Shown piece after piece: positions 11,454-21,888 of a DNA stretch of 37,630 nt (within the stretch, counting starts at the first letter, position 1; the number at the start of each line of letters is the position of its first letter). This stretch comes from Verrucomicrobiota bacterium. Lineage in GTDB: Bacteria > Verrucomicrobiota > Lentisphaeria > Victivallales > UBA1829. Position numbers and translations under genes: made by a program. Under the pieces are notes generated by a model. It worked only from the letters and a program-made list of their open reading frames with translations, did no database searches and had not been told where the DNA came from. The stretch is from positions 1-37,630 of the forward strand of contig JAKJHH010000014.1 in the NCBI GenBank assembly GCA_022703965.1, written 5' to 3'.

Positions 11454-13070
11454 TTACTTTTTAACGTCTGCTGAAGGAACTTTATTGTCAGTTTCCTGAT
11501 TTTCAAATTTTATATGCGCCTGAAGTATGGCAGAAAGCTCGGGTGGCAGGTTGGCTATAAGATTCTTTGTTATCTGAGTCTTCATCGACACAAAGGGAGG
11601 CAAGCCTGTGCGCACAGCGCTGAGACTCTGTTCCTTCTGATACTGAGTATGAACGAACAAAGCCAGTCTTTCATGAGCCAGAGCAGCGTCCATATCGCCG
11701 TAAACAACAAAAAGGCAGCTCGTATATATGAGTCCTGTGATGATTTCATTAGCCTGGCGGCGACTTGCCAGCTTGGCTGTTTCCGTCCAGACGGTCAACA
11801 CAAACTGATCAAGAGGAACTTTGAATTCCCTGTTGTCCGGCATCTCCTTCTTGAGCATGTTCATATAGTCCTGAGCTTTTGTGTAGTTGCCGAAAGAATA
11901 AAGAGTAACAACTGCTTCCTTCATAAAGTTGCGTTTGGCGTCGATGAATGTCTTGGCTCCGTTGTTGCGTTCGGCGGTTTCCTCGTAAGTCCTTTTTACG
12001 GCATCCACGACATTAAGATTCGGAACAGTCATGATTCTGCCCTGATATTCAGGATTGTCGATCATGAGGAGACGTCCTGCCGAGAACGCTTCCTTGAGCG
12101 ATTGCGTTATCATGCGCTCGCAGTCTATGCTTTTCTTGTCCGGTGACTTCTCTATTCCCAGCGTTGCCCAGTAAATGGCATGTGCTTCGGGCATTCTCCA
12201 ATCGAACTTGCCGTACTTGTTATTGATTTCTACGATCAGTGACGGATTGAGTTTGTAGACTTCGCGCAGCCACTTTGAGCGTAGATAGAGTTCAAGAGGC
12301 ATCAGTTCTGCGGGATTCTTGAATTCTGCGCTGAAGGTCTCTGGAAATTTACCTGTTTCCCTGAACTTCTGCTCCAGCTCTTCAAGTGTGTTGAAGCCCG
12401 CAACCCGCAAAGCCTTCTCGAAGGGAGATTCAGGCGGATAATGTTTCATCAGCTCCTCTTTTGTGCGCGGAGCCGAGGCAAGTTTGTTCCAGTCCGGATC
12501 AGCTGAGCCTGTGACTTTCATCATCTGTATCGCCATCTGGTACTTATAGTACAAATTGGCGTCGTCCATGATGTTGCCTATCTTGTGCTGATATATCCAG
12601 CCGAGTTCCTTGTAGAGTACCGGATCAGCAGGATTGTATTGCAAAGCCTCGTCCCTTATCAGCTCGATTCCTCTCTGCACCCAGCGCCAGCGGTCTTCTG
12701 GAGACGAAAAGGTCACGGAAATGTTGTATGCCATATTCCAGGCCAAGTAAGCCGTCGCTCCTGTGAAGCGCGGCTGAAGCTTGGTTATCCACGAGGCCAG
12801 CTGAACCATTTCAAAGTAATTTCCCTGCTCCTGAAGTGTCGTGGCGCGAAGCCAGAGCAAGTCGGCCAGAAGTCCCCGGAAACTTCCCAGCGCGACCGTC
12901 GTAAACATCACCACCGGCGGTGCGTTTTCCACTGAACCGGTGTCCGTCAGACGATTATCCACTGTAATCTTGTTGATTTTCAGCTGGACAAGATGAATTG
13001 AAAAAAGCAGGACGAGGGAGGCGGCGACGACTCCTGCAAAAATAAGCAGTCTTGAAAAGTTTCCGTTCAT
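11454..13070 (-). CDS. membrane-anchored protein of unknown function with TPR-like helices, ABC-operon partner
   Basis: The 538-residue product has one N-terminal membrane segment (about residues 8-28), and the rest is probably outside the cytoplasm. The following part is helical and Trp/Tyr-rich (L-L-A-D-L-L-W-L-R-A near 65-75, then W-I-T-K-L-Q-P-R-F-T and L-Q-Y-N-P-A-D-P-V-L-Y-K-E-L-G-W). The repeated L-x-P / Y-N-P-A-D-P turns between helices look like tetratricopeptide-type repeats, but no single repeat is clean. There is no catalytic motif. The gene overlaps the permease gene by 4 bp (ATGA), strong evidence for translational coupling. It is probably an extracytoplasmic partner of the ABC permease; I do not recognise a named family. 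Confidence 0.8.
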   Translation of the reverse strand: MNGNFSRLLIFAGVVAASLVLLFSIHLVQLKINKITVDNRLTDTGSVENAPPVVMFTTVALGSFRGLLADLLWLRATTLQEQGNYFEMVQLASWITKLQPRFTGATAYLAWNMAYNISVTFSSPEDRWRWVQRGIELIRDEALQYNPADPVLYKELGWIYQHKIGNIMDDANLYYKYQMAIQMMKVTGSADPDWNKLASAPRTKEELMKHYPPESPFEKALRVAGFNTLEELEQKFRETGKFPETFSAEFKNPAELMPLELYLRSKWLREVYKLNPSLIVEINNKYGKFDWRMPEAHAIYWATLGIEKSPDKKSIDCERMITQSLKEAFSAGRLLMIDNPEYQGRIMTVPNLNVVDAVKRTYEETAERNNGAKTFIDAKRNFMKEAVVTLYSFGNYTKAQDYMNMLKKEMPDNREFKVPLDQFVLTVWTETAKLASRRQANEIITGLIYTSCLFVVYGDMDAALAHERLALFVHTQYQKEQSLSAVRTGLPPFVSMKTQITKNLIANLPPELSAILQAHIKFENQETDNKVPSADVKK

Positions 13071-14518
13071 TTTCTTATCACAAGTCCAAGTTCACGCCGT
13101 CTGTACAGCCATATGCCCAGAAGGAACCAGGGCATGCCTTTGATCAGCATGTATTCAATAAATATTCCTCGCATGTATCTGAACTCAATGAGTTCTCCGT
13201 TGGATACTTTATCTGAAATTTCAAACTTCTGCACAGGAATTATGCATGTCATCAGGACGTGACTGACCGAGAGCCCGACCTTTTCCATTATCGAGGCCTT
13301 AGGATCTTCTCCATACATTTCCTGATTGCCTATGAGGAAGCTTGAAAAACTGCCGAAAAGCAGGTATGCACAGACCATGAAGATGGCTGTAGGCATCGAA
13401 AGCGCCGAGGCAAACGCGCAGGAGAGTCCGCAGAGGATCAGTATTTTCAGCGCGATCACAGCAACCGCTCTCAAATAGTTGTTGATGAAGCTTGTCGATT
13501 TGATGAGCAGTTTAGGACCGTCCGCAAGCTGGAAAAACAGAGGTTTCTGATTCATATCCAGATTCATGAAACGCAGCGCTACAGTATTGTCTTCCCCAAT
13601 GACATCAGGAGTCATGGCGAATTCGTGGAAAGCGCTGCAAACTATTCTTTCAGCTTCCTGGCTTTTTGCCAGAAAGACCTCGCGGACCTGAGGCTTGGCA
13701 TCCTTTGGAGCGCCTTCAGCTGGTTTTTCTTCGAGCATAAAACGGGCAAACCAGACTCCGTAAGTTTCTTTCTGCTCTTTCGAGGTTATGCTGCCGTGAT
13801 AAATCCTGTAACGGATGAATACCGGAGCATCCTTGATTTTCGGAACGTTGTTAAATGTCCAGGTTTTGGCTTCCTGAGGGCCGAACTTAACTTCTCCGAG
13901 GTTCGCAATGATCTGACGGCGGATTTCCTGATAAAGAGCTGTTTTTCCTTCCGCCGTCTGAGGCACTGTGCTGTTCTGCATGCCGCTGACATTCGATTCG
14001 GAAAGACGCTTAAGAAACTCTTCCTTAGTCTTCTCGTTTATATCTGGGATCTGAGGATAGAATACTGTACGTCCGACGAGAACTTCATTATTGATTTTAT
14101 CTCTTTCCTCTTTCGGAAATTCGCGTGTTTTGAACTGAAACATCACAAGCAGAAGGATCACTGCCGATGCGATCAGAAGCAGTGCAAAATTGATCAGAAA
14201 CACTCCGCAGAGCTTGCCTATCCATACCTTCACTCTTGAGACAGGCTTGGAAAGAACCATGTGAATCTGATATGACTCCACATCCTGAGTCATAACCTGA
14301 CAACTCAGCCAGACCGCGGAAAGCGAAAGAATAAAGCTGGCGAATCCAAGACTGTATTTCAATGAAATCTGGATGAACCCGTATGCTGTTCCGTCGCCGG
14401 ATATCGTCATCGGAATAGCTATCACGCTGACGATGAGCAGAAAATTCAGTATCTGAAACACATAGGATCTCAGAGCCGATTTTACTGTATGTTTTAGTAT
14501 GGCGAGAAATGATATCAT
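13067..14518 (-). CDS. ABC-2 type transporter permease with large extracytoplasmic insert
   Basis: The 483-residue product has N-terminal membrane helices at about residues 22-37, 53-75 and 108-128. A soluble insert of roughly 220 residues follows (about 130-350), then more helices (about 352-405) and a last one near 455-475. The motif V-L-S-K-P-V-S-R before a helix and the overall fold are typical of ABC-2 permeases of the NosY/GldF kind. The insert is probably on the outer face of the inner membrane and could bind the partner encoded next. The gene begins 18 bp after the ATPase gene ends and overlaps the 538-aa gene by 4 bp. The substrate is unknown. Confidence 0.85.
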   Translation of the reverse strand: MISFLAILKHTVKSALRSYVFQILNFLLIVSVIAIPMTISGDGTAYGFIQISLKYSLGFASFILSLSAVWLSCQVMTQDVESYQIHMVLSKPVSRVKVWIGKLCGVFLINFALLLIASAVILLLVMFQFKTREFPKEERDKINNEVLVGRTVFYPQIPDINEKTKEEFLKRLSESNVSGMQNSTVPQTAEGKTALYQEIRRQIIANLGEVKFGPQEAKTWTFNNVPKIKDAPVFIRYRIYHGSITSKEQKETYGVWFARFMLEEKPAEGAPKDAKPQVREVFLAKSQEAERIVCSAFHEFAMTPDVIGEDNTVALRFMNLDMNQKPLFFQLADGPKLLIKSTSFINNYLRAVAVIALKILILCGLSCAFASALSMPTAIFMVCAYLLFGSFSSFLIGNQEMYGEDPKASIMEKVGLSVSHVLMTCIIPVQKFEISDKVSNGELIEFRYMRGIFIEYMLIKGMPWFLLGIWLYRRRELGLVIRK

Positions 14519-14536
14519 GCTGAGAACCCGGAACCT

Positions 14537-15715
14537 TTATTTTGAAAGGAATTTCTTGAGTTTTTCGTTGGCTTCATCAAGCTTGGCCTGAACTTCCGCA
14601 GGAGTTTCGACCTTTACCGCTTCCTCAGTTTTCTTTACAGGTTCTTCAGCTGTAAGTTTTTCAAGTTTGGCTGCATCGGCGACAAGAGGAGCTGCGGTTT
14701 CGACAGCTGCCTTCTGTACAGGCAGTTCATCTTTCTTTATCAGACTTTCGAGAACTTTATCGGATTTCGCGTTTTCTTCCGTTCCGAGGTAATTCGCTAT
14801 ATGGCCGCCGCTTACAACTCCGAAGGTTTCGAGACTTTCGGAACGAGCCTTACAAATGACATCAAGGAAGAAGTCTTCCAGTGTCTTGCGCGGATGGTCT
14901 ATCTTGAACTCCTCGCCCGAAAGATTTTCACGAAGCAGCTTCAGAACTTTTTCTGTATGTTCGGCACTCAGCGACGGCATTGTTATGCGGCTTGTTTCGG
15001 AAACTGTAAGGAGCTTATCCAGAGTGCCTTCCGCACGGATTTTTCCGCCGTAAAGAATTACAACACGGTCGCAGACATCTTCGACATCGCTCAGAAGATG
15101 GCTTGTGACGATAACGGTTTTTCCGCGTTTTTTGAGGTGCAGAATCAAGTCTTTGACTTCACGGCATCCAACAGGGTCGAGTCCTGAGGTCGGCTCGTCG
15201 AGAATCAGAAGAGCCGGGTCGTTTATCATAGCCTGGGCAAGTCCTATGCGGCGAGCCATACCCTTGGAAAATTCTCCGACAGGTCTGTTCTTCGCGTGGC
15301 TGAGTCCCACCATGTCCAGAAGCTGTTCCGCGCGGCTTTTGCGTTCAGCCGCCGAAAGATTGAAAAGCGCTCCGAAGAAATCCAGAGTCTCATAGGCCGT
15401 AAGATATTTGTAGAGATAAGTTTCTTCAGGCAGATAGCCAAGCATTTGCTTGGTCTTGACATCCTGAGGCGACTTCCCGAAAACGCTGAGATTGCCTCCG
15501 GTTGGATAGAGCAGGCCAAGAAGCATTTTAACTGTGGTGGATTTGCCGGAACCGTTAGGTCCGAGAAGGCCGAATATCTCGCCTTCCTTCACATCAAAAT
15601 CTATATCGTTAACGGCTTTTGCCTTGGGTCTGTTCCAGAAATCGCGGAACTCCTTCGTCAGCCCTACGGCTCTGACTATGACCTGTGACTCGGGATTTGA
15701 TGCGTCCGTCACCAT
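14537..15715 (-). CDS. ABC transporter ATP-binding protein with charged C-terminal tail
   Basis: The 392-residue product contains a full nucleotide-binding domain. Walker A is G-P-N-G-S-G-K-S (52-59). The signature is F-S-K-G-M-A-R-R (149-156), a common variant in ABC-2 ATPases. Walker B is L-L-I-L-D-E-P (169-175), followed by the D-loop S-G-L-D and the switch His206. It resembles CcmA/NatA/GldA-type ATPases that power ABC-2 permeases. After about residue 290 there is an extra tail of about 100 residues rich in Ala, Glu and Lys (V-K-K-T-E-E-A-V-K-V-E-T-P), predicted to be extended or coiled. Such a tail is unusual and could contact an operon partner. The gene lies 76 bp after the P-type ATPase gene and 18 bp before the permease gene. 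Confidence 0.92.
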   Translation of the reverse strand: MVTDASNPESQVIVRAVGLTKEFRDFWNRPKAKAVNDIDFDVKEGEIFGLLGPNGSGKSTTVKMLLGLLYPTGGNLSVFGKSPQDVKTKQMLGYLPEETYLYKYLTAYETLDFFGALFNLSAAERKSRAEQLLDMVGLSHAKNRPVGEFSKGMARRIGLAQAMINDPALLILDEPTSGLDPVGCREVKDLILHLKKRGKTVIVTSHLLSDVEDVCDRVVILYGGKIRAEGTLDKLLTVSETSRITMPSLSAEHTEKVLKLLRENLSGEEFKIDHPRKTLEDFFLDVICKARSESLETFGVVSGGHIANYLGTEENAKSDKVLESLIKKDELPVQKAAVETAAPLVADAAKLEKLTAEEPVKKTEEAVKVETPAEVQAKLDEANEKLKKFLSK

Positions 15716-15791: not shown

Positions 15792-17798
15792 TCAGTTTTT
15801 GTCCTGAAGCTCTTCGCCGGTTCTCACCAGACGCGCGCTGTTGAATATCACTATTATGGTGCTCAGCGAATGCAGAACAGCAGCCGTCACCGGCGACATG
15901 TAACCGAACGCCGAAAGTATGATACCTCCGAATACGAAAAGCACACCAACCGCAAGATTCTGATTGATGATTGCTGAAGTCTTTCTCGACAAACTCACAA
16001 GGAGCGGAATTCTTCTGAGATCGTTAGTCATCAGGGCAATCGAGGCACTGCTTATTGCGATATCGCTTCCGATGGCTCCCATCGCTATGCCAAGGTCACC
16101 TGCGGCAAGAGCTGGAGCGTCGTTCACTCCGTCGCCGACAACCGCGACTGTATTGTTCTTTTTCATCTCTTCAACATAGCGAACCTTGTTTTCAGGCAGA
16201 CATTCGCTCTGGAAATCATCCACGGCGATTTTAGCAGCCACAGTTTCGGCTACCGACTGACGGTCTCCTGTCACCATTGCACAACGTGATATTCCAAGGC
16301 TCTTAAGCTCACTGATAACTTCCGGAGCATTTTCTCGGATCTTGTCGCGGAAACCTATCCAGCCGAGAATTCTGCCACCCTTAGCGACGTAGACAATACT
16401 CATTCCCTGGCTTTCATTTTCCTTTTCATGACTGTCCTTCTCGTTGATCTTAAGACCGAGAGAGAGAAGCCATTCGCCACGGCCGACATAAAGCTGTTCT
16501 CCGCCCAGCATGGCCTTGACGCCTTTGCCGTGCACTTCGCCGAATTCCGTGATCTCCGAAGCTTTGATTCCAGCCTCGGCTGCAAGACTCTGAAGAGCCA
16601 GTGCAGTAGGATGGTTGCTGTGCGCTTCCGCAGAAGCCGCCGCGACAAGCAGCGTAGCCGCGTCTGTTCCTTCTGCCGGAGCGAGACGGGCAACCGAAAG
16701 AATTCCTTCGGTCAGCGTTCCTGTCTTATCGAAAACGAAAACTTTGATCTTTGCGGCAAGCTCAAGATGGCTTACGTTCTTAATAAGGATGCCGAGACGT
16801 GCCGCTGCCGCAACCGCCGCGACAATTGTCGAAGGTGTTGCAAGGACGATAGCGCAGGGACAGGCTATTACCATGATTGTTATAACTCTCATGAGATCGC
16901 CGGTGAACCACCATGTGATGGCAGCTATCATGAGAACGGCAGGAGTATAATAGCCTGCGTAACGGTCAATGATTCTGACTACCGGAGTCTTACTGGTTTC
17001 GGCCTGAAGAATCATTTCCTTCACTTTACCGAGTGTTGTCTGCTCGCCAAGCTTTGTAACCTTGACATTCAGACTTCCTGTAAGGTTCTGAGTTCCGGCG
17101 TAGACATCGTCTTCCGGCCCTTTGTCGACGGGAAGAGATTCGCCTGTGATCGAAGCCTGATTTACTGAAGTTTCACCGCTTACAATCCGACCGTCAACCG
17201 GGAAGTTTTCGCCGGGACGGATATTGATGAGGTCGCCGATCTTCAGAGCTGATACATCAACCTGCTCGAAAGAACCGTCTTCCTTGAGAAGTCTTGCATC
17301 GTTGGGCGTCAGCTTGATAAGTTCCTCAATTGAACGCTGTGCTCCGCTGGCAGTTCTGGTTTCGATGATTATCGAGATCAGAAGGAAAAAGGCGATGATG
17401 CCTGCGGTACGGAAATCTCCGCCTGTCAGTGCGGCGAGAATCGCCAGCGCAACAAGCTCGTTCATGTAAATTTTGCCGCGGCAGATATCTTTTATAGCGG
17501 TAAGGATGATTGGCAGCGCGAGAATAACCGCACCGACAATCGCACTTAATTCACCCGCGAAAAGCTGTGTAGGCAGAAGCCAAGGAATAATATAGGAGTT
17601 AAGAATGAAATAGCCGCCTATCATGGCGACGCTCATTTTTCCGAGTGAACGTCCATGTCCTTCGCCTTCGGTCATAGGACCGCAGATCGTCGGGCAGGTA
17701 TGTCCTTTGGCATGATCGTGACGCTTGGGTTCATTAGAATGATCATGTCCGCAGGCGCACGGAGCTTTATCTGCTGTTATGCTGCTGTTTTCTGACAT
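15792..17798 (-). CDS. P1B-type heavy-metal-transporting ATPase
   Basis: The 668-residue product is an ATP-driven metal pump. An unusual tail comes first: C-A-C-G-H-D-H (14-20), H-D-H (27-29), H-T-C-P-T-I-C (33-39), with no classical HMA domain. Membrane helices follow. The actuator motif is T-G-E-S (218-221), the metal-site motif C-P-C (313-315), the phosphorylation loop D-K-T-G-T (Asp357), the nucleotide-site H-P (396-397), and G-D-G-V-N-D-A-P lies at 555-562. The last helix pair carries L-H-S-L-S-T (642-647), where Zn/Cd pumps have an Asp and Co-type pumps have H-E-G-S-T, so the metal cannot be assigned. It starts 3 bp after an SPFH gene, so coupling with that operon is clear. Confidence 0.93.
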   Translation of the reverse strand: MSENSSITADKAPCACGHDHSNEPKRHDHAKGHTCPTICGPMTEGEGHGRSLGKMSVAMIGGYFILNSYIIPWLLPTQLFAGELSAIVGAVILALPIILTAIKDICRGKIYMNELVALAILAALTGGDFRTAGIIAFFLLISIIIETRTASGAQRSIEELIKLTPNDARLLKEDGSFEQVDVSALKIGDLINIRPGENFPVDGRIVSGETSVNQASITGESLPVDKGPEDDVYAGTQNLTGSLNVKVTKLGEQTTLGKVKEMILQAETSKTPVVRIIDRYAGYYTPAVLMIAAITWWFTGDLMRVITIMVIACPCAIVLATPSTIVAAVAAAARLGILIKNVSHLELAAKIKVFVFDKTGTLTEGILSVARLAPAEGTDAATLLVAAASAEAHSNHPTALALQSLAAEAGIKASEITEFGEVHGKGVKAMLGGEQLYVGRGEWLLSLGLKINEKDSHEKENESQGMSIVYVAKGGRILGWIGFRDKIRENAPEVISELKSLGISRCAMVTGDRQSVAETVAAKIAVDDFQSECLPENKVRYVEEMKKNNTVAVVGDGVNDAPALAAGDLGIAMGAIGSDIAISSASIALMTNDLRRIPLLVSLSRKTSAIINQNLAVGVLFVFGGIILSAFGYMSPVTAAVLHSLSTIIVIFNSARLVRTGEELQDKN

Positions 17799-17801
17799 AT
17801 T

Positions 17802-18965
17802 TTACTTATCCTTGTTTTCCTCTTTTTTGGCAGGAGCCTGTATCTGCGGTTCCGGGTTCAGTTTGAGTCTGAGCTCCTGATTGCCGTTTCTGTCCTTGCT
17901 TATGATGAATTTCTCCTTTACGGAGGAAATCACTGAAGCAAGCGTACTGTTGTAGAGAGAAACAAGCACGGTGTCCGGATTCTCCGAGTACTCCGTCTTG
18001 ATTTTGTTGAAATAGAATTTGTCGGCTATGACCTGAGCTACAACTCTCTTCTTGTATGAATCCGCTTCGGCAAGGATGAGAGAGCTTTCGGAGGAAGCCA
18101 GATTAAGCTGCTCCACGGCATAAGCTCTGGCGGTGTCTTTTTCCTTCGAACTCTGCTGTTCGGCAACGATCACGTCCTGAAAAGCTCCGATGGCGGAAGG
18201 AGGTGGAGTCTTCATGCGGAGAGAAACGGAGTCAACCGTCACGCCGATGTCGAGAGCCGCAACCTGTTTGATATATTCGCTTTCAACGGCTTTGATGTAG
18301 CCGTAGGAGTCCTTGTACAGGGCATCTTCAGCCTTCCATGAAGCAGTGATTCTGAGAACTGTGTTATCTAGCAGATTTCTGAGAATCGTCTGAGGGCCGC
18401 GAGTTCCGTAAGATTCTCTTGTGACCGGATCACGCATTTGCTCGTCGCTGTCTGCGGGTTTTTCAGGAGTCAGCGTTGAAAGGTAATATTTCTTTGGATT
18501 TGAAACGCGATATACCGCGCTCCACTCCGAATGTATGATATTTGCGTCGCCCGTAAGCAGATAGCCGTCCTTGCCGGGAATCAGCGATTCGGACGGCGGC
18601 GCGGCGGCACCGTCGATGCCTGTTGACTTGGCAGGCATATACGAGGATGTCGCAACTGAACGGCTGCTGACCGGAATTCTTATCAGACTGTTGACCGGAT
18701 AAGGAAGCACCCAGTGCCAGCTGTCCTGAAAGACATCGACAATTTCACCGAAACGCAGCACAAGAACAGCTTCCTGAGGCTTTACAGTGAAATAACCGCC
18801 GAAAGTGAAAAACCATATCAGCATACCGCTGATTATGAGGGCAAGGCTGATGAAAGCCGTGTTCATGGCTTTCAGAAGAGCCTTGACTCCGGGCGAGTAC
18901 TGACCGTAATCGTCTCTTGAGAGATTTTCCGGTTTTAAATTGTGTTCGTGTTCAGACATTTTCAC
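17802..18965 (-). CDS. SPFH-domain membrane protein (HflK-like), third of three
   Basis: The 387-residue product has a His-containing N-terminus (M-K-M-S-E-H-E-H-N), one membrane helix at about residues 33-56, then an SPFH/band-7 domain. That domain starts V-K-P-Q-E-A-V-L-V-L-R-F-G-E-I and continues with W-H-W-V-L-P-Y-P and, later, A-F-Q-D-V-I-V-A-E-Q-Q. The A-F-Q-D-V segment before the coiled coil is a hallmark of HflK-type proteins, which oligomerise into membrane cages and often regulate FtsH. A Lys-rich tail ends the protein. The start codon overlaps the stop of the HflC-like gene by 4 bp. No ftsH is in view, and the pairing with a metal ATPase suggests a different client. Confidence 0.88.
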   Translation of the reverse strand: MKMSEHEHNLKPENLSRDDYGQYSPGVKALLKAMNTAFISLALIISGMLIWFFTFGGYFTVKPQEAVLVLRFGEIVDVFQDSWHWVLPYPVNSLIRIPVSSRSVATSSYMPAKSTGIDGAAAPPSESLIPGKDGYLLTGDANIIHSEWSAVYRVSNPKKYYLSTLTPEKPADSDEQMRDPVTRESYGTRGPQTILRNLLDNTVLRITASWKAEDALYKDSYGYIKAVESEYIKQVAALDIGVTVDSVSLRMKTPPPSAIGAFQDVIVAEQQSSKEKDTARAYAVEQLNLASSESSLILAEADSYKKRVVAQVIADKFYFNKIKTEYSENPDTVLVSLYNSTLASVISSVKEKFIISKDRNGNQELRLKLNPEPQIQAPAKKEENKDK

Positions 18966-19924
18966 TTCTTTTCCTGTTTGAGTTCAGGGTTAGTGAGCTT
19001 CTCGGCGTTTGTCTTGAGAAGGTCAAACGGAGCTGAATCGGTATCCAGCACCAGTGTTGTCTTTGTTTCCATGATCTTCTTTAGAGAATCAAGCTTCTTC
19101 AGGAAGGCGGCGAGTTCCGGATTTTCCTTGAAGACAGCGTAGTATGAAGCGGCTTCGGCATCTCCCTCGGCTCTTGTGCTTTTGGCTTTAGCTTCGGCAT
19201 CAGTGATGATGGCGCGTTTTTCACGGTCAGCTTCGATTTTGATTTTTTCGGCAATTTTCTTACCTTCAGCGCGATATTCGCTGGCAAGAACATTACGCTC
19301 GCTGACCATTCGTGCGGAGATTTCCTTGGTGATCTTTTCGGGAACAATGAGAGTCTTTATACCGACATTGCTTACTTCGATACCGAATTGATCCATGGCG
19401 GTCTTGGCTATTTCGTTTCTGATTTCCTTTTCGATCTCGGGCAGAAGCATTTTACTCTTGTCCGTGTTGAGAATCTGATCGAAAGCATAGCGTCCGATGA
19501 CGCCGTCTTTAGCTGTTCTCATGAGGTTGCCGAGTTTTTCTTCGGCTGAAAGAATATCTACGGCTGTCTTGTAGAACTTGGCAGGCTCGCTGATCTTATA
19601 TATTACATATATACCGATGATGACGTTCTTGCTGTCCTTGGTAATGGTTTCTTCGTTTTTGCCGATATTACCGTCGAAACATCTCTGGCGGATGTCGTAT
19701 TTTGTGATGTTCTGAATCGGATAGGGCCAGCGGAAGTGAAGCCCCGGCTTCTCGACTGCGGTGATTTTTCCGAGTGTTGTTACAACCGCAAGTTCATTGG
19801 ACTGAACTTGATAAGAAAATATTGCAGTAATAAAGACAAAGGCTACAGCAAGCCCCAGCAGTATAGTCGGCCAATGGACTGTCTTGTCATGTTCCGCATG
19901 TTCGTGTTTATGGTTCTCGGACAT
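18962..19924 (-). CDS. SPFH-domain membrane protein (HflC-like), second of three
   Basis: The 320-residue product opens with a His-rich cytoplasmic segment (M-S-E-N-H-K-H-E-H-A-E-H-D) and a membrane helix at about residues 21-40. The SPFH domain begins V-Q-S-N-E-L-A-V-V-T-T-L-G-K-I, then G-L-H-F-R-W-P-Y-P-I-Q. The coiled-coil region contains the typical R-A-E-G-K-K-I-A-E-K-I and A-x-A-K-S-T-R-A-E-G-D-A-E-A-A motifs, and A-S-Y-Y-A-V-F-K-E-N-P-E-L matches HflC closely. It overlaps the third SPFH gene by 4 bp and follows the first after 41 bp. It probably forms a hetero-oligomer with its neighbours. Confidence 0.92.
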   Translation of the reverse strand: MSENHKHEHAEHDKTVHWPTILLGLAVAFVFITAIFSYQVQSNELAVVTTLGKITAVEKPGLHFRWPYPIQNITKYDIRQRCFDGNIGKNEETITKDSKNVIIGIYVIYKISEPAKFYKTAVDILSAEEKLGNLMRTAKDGVIGRYAFDQILNTDKSKMLLPEIEKEIRNEIAKTAMDQFGIEVSNVGIKTLIVPEKITKEISARMVSERNVLASEYRAEGKKIAEKIKIEADREKRAIITDAEAKAKSTRAEGDAEAASYYAVFKENPELAAFLKKLDSLKKIMETKTTLVLDTDSAPFDLLKTNAEKLTNPELKQEKK

Positions 19925-19965: not shown

Positions 19966-21888
19966 TTATTTGGCTGAAAGTTCACCGAGATTGGCGTCAA
20001 TAAGGTCAAGTCTCGGCTTTTCTTCCATGTTAAGTTCATATATCTGATAAGGCATCGAGCCTGAAATTATGTACTTTCTGACATTCTTGCAATCGCTTTC
20101 AAGGAAGTCAAGATAGGTACGGAGGCGGAAGATGCCGGGCTGAACTTTGTATGCGTCGAGCTGACGCTTGAAGCGCATGCTTTCGGCTTCGGCAACCATC
20201 TTGGTGTTGTACTTGTATGATTCAGCATCGGCTACGATTCTCTCTCCCTGAGCCTCTGCTTCGGGAATAGTATTGGTTTTATAGGCCTTGGCTTTGAGAA
20301 TTTCGGCTTCCTTCTGCTCCATTGCGCCTATGACATCCTGAAAAGCCGGAGCAACAAGTTCTATCGGCGGATGGGCGTCATGCAGGTTGACGTAAAGAAT
20401 TTCCACTCCTAGTTTCAGGCTGTCGGCGTAATTCTGAATAAGATTCTTCAGGGAATCCGCGGCTTCCTGACGTCCTGAGGACATCAACTTCTGGAGGTCG
20501 GCCTGAGCAAAATAATTCGTCGCGGCCTTTTCTCCGATATCCTTCAATGTCTTTGCCGGATCCTGAAAATTATAGGCATAGTCCAGAAGAGCATCTTTCT
20601 TAATCCTGTAATGTACCGGCATGCTTACTTCTATAATTGAAATTGCATTGTCCTTTGAGCCTTCCCCCTTCTTATCGGATGCGACAAGATAGTTTGTCTC
20701 CTTGGCGTAATGATTTACTGTCCAGAGGATTGTAGACGGTTTTGCTTCGGGAGTGCTGCCGGATTTGAGTTCAGCACCGAGAGTGATGGATCTTACTTCC
20801 TCAATGCGGTATCTGCGTATTTTCTCGAAAGGCCACGGCATCTTGAGATAAACACCGGGTTCAAGAGCTGTCTTGCTTACAAGACTTCCGAAGCGCTCGC
20901 GGAGTCCGTTCTCACCGGGGCCGACTTCGCTGAGACCAGTGAAAAGCCACAGAGAAAGCAGCCAGAGAAGAGTCAGCGGAAATATTGATTTTTCAGCAAA
21001 ACTGTATATCCATGTTTTTGAGACCTTGAAGCCGAACTGATAATCCAGCATGTCGGCTACATTGCGGATGACTCCGCCGGGCTCTGTGAAAAGAGCAAGA
21101 ATTCTGCTCTCGAAAACAGGTCTTTCCTCTTTACTTGTGCGAGGTCTGTAGAATTCACTTATAAAACTCAGCAGAAGCTCGACGGCAAGAGCGGCATAAG
21201 CCCAGAAAAGAATATTCCTGAGAACCGCATCCCAGCCTGTGATTCCATACTGCTGAAGAAGCGCGGCTGTAAGCGCAAGAGCCATCGATGCGGCTCCGGC
21301 AGTGAGCCAGGCTCCTGTCGGACGCAGGAAACGAAAGCCCTTGTCATAAGACTGGCCTGTGCAGAATATTCCGGCAAACATGTTGAGACAGAGGAAGATT
21401 ATGCAGACAAAAGCACTGTGGAGTATGTTTGTCGGCTGGGGAGCAACAGGACGCGTTGTCCAGTACTTCCATGTAAAATAAAGAGTCACGGCAATAATTA
21501 CAAGTCCAAGAAGAGCAACGACCTGAGGAGCATATTTACGGTAGTTGGAAAAAGTCCTTCCGGCGGTGAAACGGACATCTTCTTCTATATTAAGCGCATT
21601 AGTCTGTTTGCGCTTTTCGAGCAAGGATTTTTCCTCTTCCTCCTGAGCTGCTTTTCCGGAAAGGATTCCGTAGAAAACCGATGCCAGCGCAAAGAGCAAC
21701 GCAATAATATAAGGTAATACCGTAATTGAATAAGTGTCAAAGCCCGTCCAGGAGTAAATTGTTCCTGAAATGAAGACTATCAAAGCACCTATAAAAGAAT
21801 AAACGGCCGCAATGCCGGACAGCACTGTCAGCATTCTCGCTTTTTCTTCTCTTGTCTTTATATCTGACAGATTTACGTTTTCCTGCAT
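19966..21888 (-). CDS. polytopic SPFH-domain protein (HflK-like with multi-helix N-terminal half), first of three
   Basis: The 640-residue product is much longer than HflK (about 400). Its first ~310 residues hold several hydrophobic helices (about 19-43, 54-77, 122-142, 158-176, 192-212 and 225-244). A further helix lies near 307-325, directly before an SPFH domain (V-G-P-G-E-N-G-L-R-E-R-F-G-S-L, then P-G-V-Y-L-K-M-P-W-P-F). A-F-Q-D-V-I-G-A-M-E-Q-K-E-A-E and A-E-A-Q-G-E-R-I-V-A-D-A-E mark the coiled coil. It is the first gene of the operon, 40 bp after the predicted transcription start. The role of the extra membrane part is unknown; it could anchor the assembly or hold the partner transporters. 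Confidence 0.88.
   Translation of the reverse strand: MQENVNLSDIKTREEKARMLTVLSGIAAVYSFIGALIVFISGTIYSWTGFDTYSITVLPYIIALLFALASVFYGILSGKAAQEEEEKSLLEKRKQTNALNIEEDVRFTAGRTFSNYRKYAPQVVALLGLVIIAVTLYFTWKYWTTRPVAPQPTNILHSAFVCIIFLCLNMFAGIFCTGQSYDKGFRFLRPTGAWLTAGAASMALALTAALLQQYGITGWDAVLRNILFWAYAALAVELLLSFISEFYRPRTSKEERPVFESRILALFTEPGGVIRNVADMLDYQFGFKVSKTWIYSFAEKSIFPLTLLWLLSLWLFTGLSEVGPGENGLRERFGSLVSKTALEPGVYLKMPWPFEKIRRYRIEEVRSITLGAELKSGSTPEAKPSTILWTVNHYAKETNYLVASDKKGEGSKDNAISIIEVSMPVHYRIKKDALLDYAYNFQDPAKTLKDIGEKAATNYFAQADLQKLMSSGRQEAADSLKNLIQNYADSLKLGVEILYVNLHDAHPPIELVAPAFQDVIGAMEQKEAEILKAKAYKTNTIPEAEAQGERIVADAESYKYNTKMVAEAESMRFKRQLDAYKVQPGIFRLRTYLDFLESDCKNVRKYIISGSMPYQIYELNMEEKPRLDLIDANLGELSAK

Follow-up and report, generated by a model that had tools for sequence, protein, structure and literature searches.

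The window analysed here is a 37,630-nucleotide stretch of a Verrucomicrobiota genome (contig JAKJHH010000014.1). Its minus strand carries four consecutive genes encoding a 640-aa SPFH protein (SPFH640), an HflC-like and an HflK-like SPFH protein, and a P1B-type heavy-metal ATPase, here called the pump (Table 1). The stop codon of the HflC-like gene lies 2 nt before the ATG of the HflK-like gene, and 3 nt separate the HflK-like stop codon from the pump ATG; an alternative GTG start of the HflK-like gene, at 18965, would give a protein of 387 aa. Positions 11454-15715 hold the genes of an ABC-2 type transporter (ATPase and permease) and of a membrane protein of 538 aa, all of them conserved downstream neighbours of the operon. 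In the genome from which the window comes (78% complete), the operon pump is the only P1B ATPase above the cut-off. A Band_7 search of this genome missed SPFH640 and is therefore not a full count of its SPFH genes.

Table 1. Genes and sequence features of the SPFH-P1B operon, with positions in the window
Feature	Position	Strand	Basis or remark
640-aa SPFH protein (SPFH640)	19966..21888	-	Pfam Band_7 2.1e-14; TIGR01933 129.7 bits, below cut-off 159.4
HflC-like SPFH protein, 320 aa	18962..19924	-	TIGR01932 145.1 bits, above cut-off 134.4; PDB 7vhp HflC 3.4e-24
HflC-like N-terminal tail MSENHKHEHAEHDKTVH	19874..19924	-	His 5, 7, 9, 12 and H17; from sequence
HflK-like SPFH protein, 385 aa from likely ATG 18959	17802..18959	-	Band_7 9.3e-20; TIGR01933 115.5 bits, below cut-off
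H-E-H, residues 4-6 of HflK-like protein (MSEHEHN)	18942..18950	-	From sequence
P1B-type heavy-metal ATPase (pump), 668 aa	15792..17798	-	TIGR01525 562.6 bits (cut-off 346.25); Foldseek 4bbj, 4umw, 7qbz
Pump N-tail, 54 aa: CACGHDH, HDH, CPTIC-G knuckle, GHGRS before first membrane helix	17637..17798	-
CPC, residues 313-315, transmembrane helix M4 of pump	16854..16862	-
His643, motif HxxST(x5)NSARL, last membrane helix of pump	15870..15872	-	Aligns with His of sCoaT HEGxT motif (PMC8880997)
ABC-2 type ATPase	14537..15715	-	Next gene of conserved operon
ABC-2 type permease	13067..14518	-	PF12679 25.2 bits, just below cut-off 27.2; conserved neighbour

SPFH proteins and conservation of the operon

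The 320-aa protein is a member of HflC by TIGR01932. The HflK-like protein, scored in its 387-aa form, and SPFH640 both fall short of the TIGR01933 cut-off, and judged by these profiles they are HflK-related, that is, HflK-like only. SPFH640 has six predicted N-terminal membrane helices, followed by a further membrane helix, an HflK-like SPFH domain and a long coiled coil, and it has no His tail; its AF2 model (mean pLDDT 76) matches HflK (7vhq/9cz2) in Foldseek. The possibility that its membrane domain is a CDF zinc transporter was rejected: YiiP/ZnT chains rank after the SPFH matches in Foldseek (best E 0.017), hhalign gives a probability of 30%, conserved acidic or His residues are sparse in the helices, and Pfam is silent. 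In one genome (L066:10641-11639), a separate gene for a transporter of the CDF family directly precedes the operon on the same strand, and the N-terminus of its product is rich in His (MGHSHSHADGEE); this is the only one among the loci examined in which a CDF gene adjoins the operon.

Relatives of the same family and order, and then those across the class, nearly all show the arrangement SPFH640-HflC-HflK-pump-ABC, and most genomes fetched from other classes of the phylum have the same gene order. Counted over loci holding both members of a pair, SPFH640 adjoins HflC in 124 of 130, HflC adjoins HflK in 137 of 142, and HflK adjoins the pump in 159 of 170. Start codons of the relatives were picked by a ribosome-site heuristic, and most of the genomes are probably metagenome assemblies. 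The association between the SPFH genes and the pump gene is old and stable, irrespective of the state of the tails described below; the preliminary description of this locus had called the genes neighbouring and coupled, which both this stability and the narrow spacing in the window bear out. Genus g5 (L077-L080, L083-L085, L088, L096) keeps HflC, HflK and the pump, with an ABC ATPase gene upstream and without a recognisable SPFH640 gene. L092, L093 and L095 hold divergent paralogues of the operon (45-47% identical), which likewise combine SPFH genes with a pump gene, placed either ahead of the SPFH genes or behind them; the only complete pump tail among them, that of L095, contains no His.

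Gene linkage of this kind could also reflect an operon partnership without a complex, in which the HflK/C-like proteins are modulators of FtsH or of further membrane proteins, and co-expression of the pump reflects a common response to envelope or metal stress. E. coli HflK/C do bind FtsH (PMC12005517), and an FtsH gene is present in the window's genome, though unlinked to the operon. The real cargo may be FtsH, with which HflK/C usually associate. The unusually tight gene order across classes, which includes lineages whose pump has lost its CPC motif, speaks against such a loose partnership, as do the 2-3 nt gaps in the window and the sharing of tails of the same kind by the partners; we consider it unlikely.

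The pump and its N-terminal tail

The pump belongs to the P1B heavy-metal ATPases, with a TIGR01525 score above the cut-off and the CPx, DKTGT, HP, TGES and GDGxNDxP motifs present; its Pfam matches are E1-E2_ATPase and Hydrolase only, with no HMA domain. Three subclasses were considered and rejected. P1B-1 (Cu) is marked by CPC with YN(x)4P and MxxSS (PMC4932525), whereas the pump has QN, not YN, and a last helix reading HxxST...NSARL, without MxxSS. The P1B-2 (Zn/Cd/Pb) signature was applied as CPC, T(x)5QN(x)7K and DxG(x)7N; CPC and T(x)5QN are present, but K is replaced by V and D by H. For P1B-4 (Co/Zn), applied as SPC plus HEGxT, the pump has CPC instead of SPC, and H643, which sits where ZntA has Asp, aligns with the His of HEGxT, the E and G being absent. 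By its signature residues, the pump is a P1B ATPase outside P1B-1, P1B-2 and P1B-4.

The place of an HMA domain is occupied by the N-terminal tail, of which residues 1-49 are predicted to be disordered (pLDDT < 50). CACGHDH (residues 14-20), HDH (27-29) and HTCPTIC (33-39) had all been reported from the first 40 residues and are all present there, although HTCPTIC (17682-17702) falls outside the interval beginning at 17703 to which it had been assigned. Relatives have pump tails with a median of about 54 residues, CGHxH/HDH repeats, GHxRS just before the first helix and, in most, a CxxCG knuckle (CPTIC-G in the window). Phylum-wide, 115 of the 174 pumps of this operon have a tail with at least four His and Cys residues.

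CPC is intact in M4 of each of the 115 tailed pumps, and the 42 CPC-less pumps are tail-less without exception. In the CPC-less pumps, M4 reads VPA (L138, L143-L149, L151, L152, L241-L248, L250, L251, L253-L256, L258-L260), CPG (L192-L194, L197), CPV (L200-L202), CPL (L190), CPI, CPM, LPC (L223, L229, L233) or IPC (L235). On a FastTree tree built on the pump core only, with the M4 CPC columns removed, the CPC-less pumps form six clades; six events placed randomly on the branches reproduce the pattern with P ~0.005, or P ~0.002 with clade sizes matched, in a test that assumes equal rates and was chosen after the pattern had been seen. An independent-pairs test of CPC against tail had too few pairs (p 0.25-1). 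Tail-less pumps with CPC adjoin some of the CPC-less clades, which suggests that the tail was lost before CPC.

The CPC-less pumps are not decaying, since the catalytic motifs TGES, DKTGTLT, SNHP and GDGVNDAPAL are intact in the 19 that were checked, pumps of the VPA group are about 76% identical to one another, and the operon is kept. Since the operon is retained even with pumps that have lost this motif, it must have some role besides metal export. Further P1B ATPases were found in some, not all, of the genomes with CPC-less pumps.

A role in metal handling, as first proposed for the pump tail, is supported by its conservation and by its absence from every CPC-less pump. This role might be that of a metal-sensing autoinhibitory switch and not that of a delivery site, as has been discussed for P1B N-termini including those of ATP7B and CoaT (PMC8880997), and the predicted disorder of the tail would suit a switch. 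The sequence does not distinguish between them, however, the absence of the tail from CPC-less pumps fitting both switch and delivery, and we regard the switch as a doubtful explanation. The reading favoured below, in which the tail feeds or gates the CPC site, has a point against it as well: deletion of the His/Cys-rich N-tail of sCoaT had little effect in vitro (PMC8880997).

Histidine-rich tails of the SPFH proteins

The HflC-like protein begins with MSENHKHEHAEHDKTVHW, in which four His fall within 14 residues and five within 17. Five had earlier been counted in the first 14; the fifth is H17, part of a juxtamembrane HW(P) motif, and it stands outside the lineage-specific His run because this motif is widespread (90 of about 140 orthologues, about 60%). 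The H-E-H described at the start of the HflK-like protein is present when the protein is read from its likely ATG.

The preliminary description had asked whether the His and Cys residues of the three tails are conserved together. Among orthologues the pump tail is conserved; strict co-conservation across all three tails was rejected, as orthologues with the operon intact show only a scattered occurrence of His in the SPFH tails, an outcome named beforehand as contradicting the proposal. Most HflC and HflK orthologues are without His tails, and the nearest HflC orthologue (L037, 64% identical) is without the His run (MTDEANSSKFSQHWP). This scatter, together with the variation of the tails in length and position, speaks for an explanation in which the pump tail is the genuine metal-binding input, while the His runs of the SPFH proteins arose incidentally, as low-complexity drift in short tails under no constraint, and play no part in metal handling.

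Some SPFH tails are very rich in His, with 11 in the HflC of L140 and 10 in that of L136; the HflC tails of genus g7 carry MSETCCGHNHDH and CEHEHDHH, the HflK tails of genus g56 are also very His-rich, and the HflK tail of L257 reads MSQHHHHEHGDSCGHDHHEHDENCHHHH. A threshold of four or more His among the first 30 residues was reached by 50 of 106 pumps, 5 of 78 HflC and 5 of 83 HflK proteins, and, as controls from the same operons, by 0/82 ABC ATPases, 0/68 permeases, 0/81 of the 538-aa proteins and 1/117 SPFH640 proteins. The His background was taken from the fetched loci, leaving out the class of 'other' proteins, which is full of spurious antisense ORFs. On the pump tree, HxH tails fall into about five clades for HflC and eight for HflK, and none occurs on the N-tail of SPFH640 (0/124 in the tree set). 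No His-tailed SPFH protein stands beside a CPC-less pump (P ~0.03).

These counts weigh against drift, since HxH tails form 13 clades in HflC and HflK taken together and none on the N-tail of the third SPFH protein, and the 231 ABC, permease and 538-aa control proteins include none with four or more His. A binomial test gives P ~6e-7, or 5e-4 for strict cases, on the assumption of equal rates per protein and, like the branch test, chosen after the pattern had been seen. Several SPFH tails also bear CCGH/CxC motifs like those of the pump tail (L058, L063, L070). The pattern looks like repeated independent gain rather than noise, and drift seems to us improbable. What stands of the link between SPFH tails and metal is thus their repeated gain on HflC and HflK and their absence beside CPC-less pumps, while joint conservation does not.

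A trade-off, with a long HflC tail making up for a shortened pump tail, was also considered; it is seen in one genus (L058, L063, L070) and not in L136 or L140, and was set aside as anecdotal. An independent-pairs test between HflC and HflK gave no information.

Proposed metal-efflux unit and known systems

Each of the E. coli proteins HflK and HflC crosses the membrane once, with a helix at its N-terminus, and the SPFH domain that follows lies in the periplasm (PMC12005517, PMC2636767). By analogy, the N-tails of HflC and HflK would be cytoplasmic, on the side where a P1B exporter picks up its metal; the positive-inside rule weakly agrees for HflC and gives no indication for HflK. The preliminary description had metal captured by the cage and handed to the pump. 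A cage that is periplasmic, as homology predicts, could not take up metal in the cytosol, which makes it an unlikely site of capture; of the SPFH proteins, the cytoplasm would be reached by the short N-termini only.

On balance, we favour the view that the conserved operon encodes an SPFH-scaffolded P1B metal exporter, whose His/Cys-rich pump tail and lineage-specific SPFH tails would concentrate metal for the pump. The comparisons suggest, and do not prove, that scaffold and pump act as one metal-efflux unit. The disordered pump tail, replacing an HMA domain, would bind cytosolic metal and feed or gate the CPC site, and HflC, HflK and SPFH640 would oligomerise around or beside the pump, as the near-invariant gene order and the homology to HflK/C lead us to infer. 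In some lineages, including that of the window, HflC or HflK would independently have gained a cytoplasmic His tail, and such tails, repeated round the oligomer, could form a metal-concentrating collar or local reservoir beside the pump. The exported metal would be released into the periplasm, on the side of the SPFH domains. Since most orthologues are without them, the SPFH tails are dispensable for the unit.

A wider reading is tentative, and we would not yet call it probable: the operon may encode a phylum-wide SPFH (HflK/C-type)-P1B machine in which metal tails are possible on any of the three subunits, and the ATPase, which in six lineages shed both the transmembrane cysteines and the tail while keeping the catalytic motifs checked and its place in the operon, may serve another function, or move another substrate, in addition to exporting soft metals. 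If the exporter reading is true, SPFH scaffolds, which are usually seen as FtsH regulators or raft markers, gain a concrete partner and a job, that of organising a metal exporter. The natural variants, with a tail on HflC, on HflK or on the pump only, and with pumps that have or lack CPC, would offer a direct way to test how the labour is divided.

No report of this SPFH/P1B operon turned up in the literature that was searched; its parts can be compared with several known systems. The pump shares with ZntA (P1B-2, PDB 4umv) the CPC motif, T(x)5QN in the preceding helix and a conserved N in the last helix, and differs in having V and H for the ZntA lysine and aspartate and in having no HMA domain. 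Like sCoaT (P1B-4, PDB 7qbz, PMC8880997), it combines the lack of an HMA domain with a metal-ligand-rich N-tail and a conserved last-helix His, but it has CPC where sCoaT has SPC, and HxxST for HEGxT. The E. coli HflK/HflC cage (PDB 7vhp, 7wi3) is likewise built from a heteromeric gene pair whose products have a single N-terminal membrane helix, an SPFH domain and a coiled coil, and a heteromeric HflK/C-type periplasmic cage would be expected here by homology only; here, however, the genes are linked to a P1B pump and not to FtsH, a third SPFH protein brings six extra helices, and His tails occur in some lineages.

The nearest analogue is found in the PacL1/CtpC effluxosomes of Mycobacterium tuberculosis. 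PacL1 is a membrane protein that binds Zn through a cytoplasmic DLHDHDH motif and forms platforms with its P1B pump; it stabilises the pump, and the LHDHDH motif becomes necessary only when zinc is high (PMC9374683, PMC13043812). Both systems have a membrane-anchored partner encoded with a P1B pump and a short cytoplasmic HxHxH-type motif on that partner, for which a role as scaffold and metallochaperone has been proposed. PacL (DUF1490), however, is not an SPFH protein, its motif is C-terminal and its foci form without flotillin, whereas the partners here are of the HflK/HflC type, match Band_7 only and carry N-terminal tails on some members only. The likeness, drawn by analogy, is a resemblance in working and not membership; if the exporter reading holds, the operon would represent a second, unrelated solution to a PacL-type metal-efflux platform.
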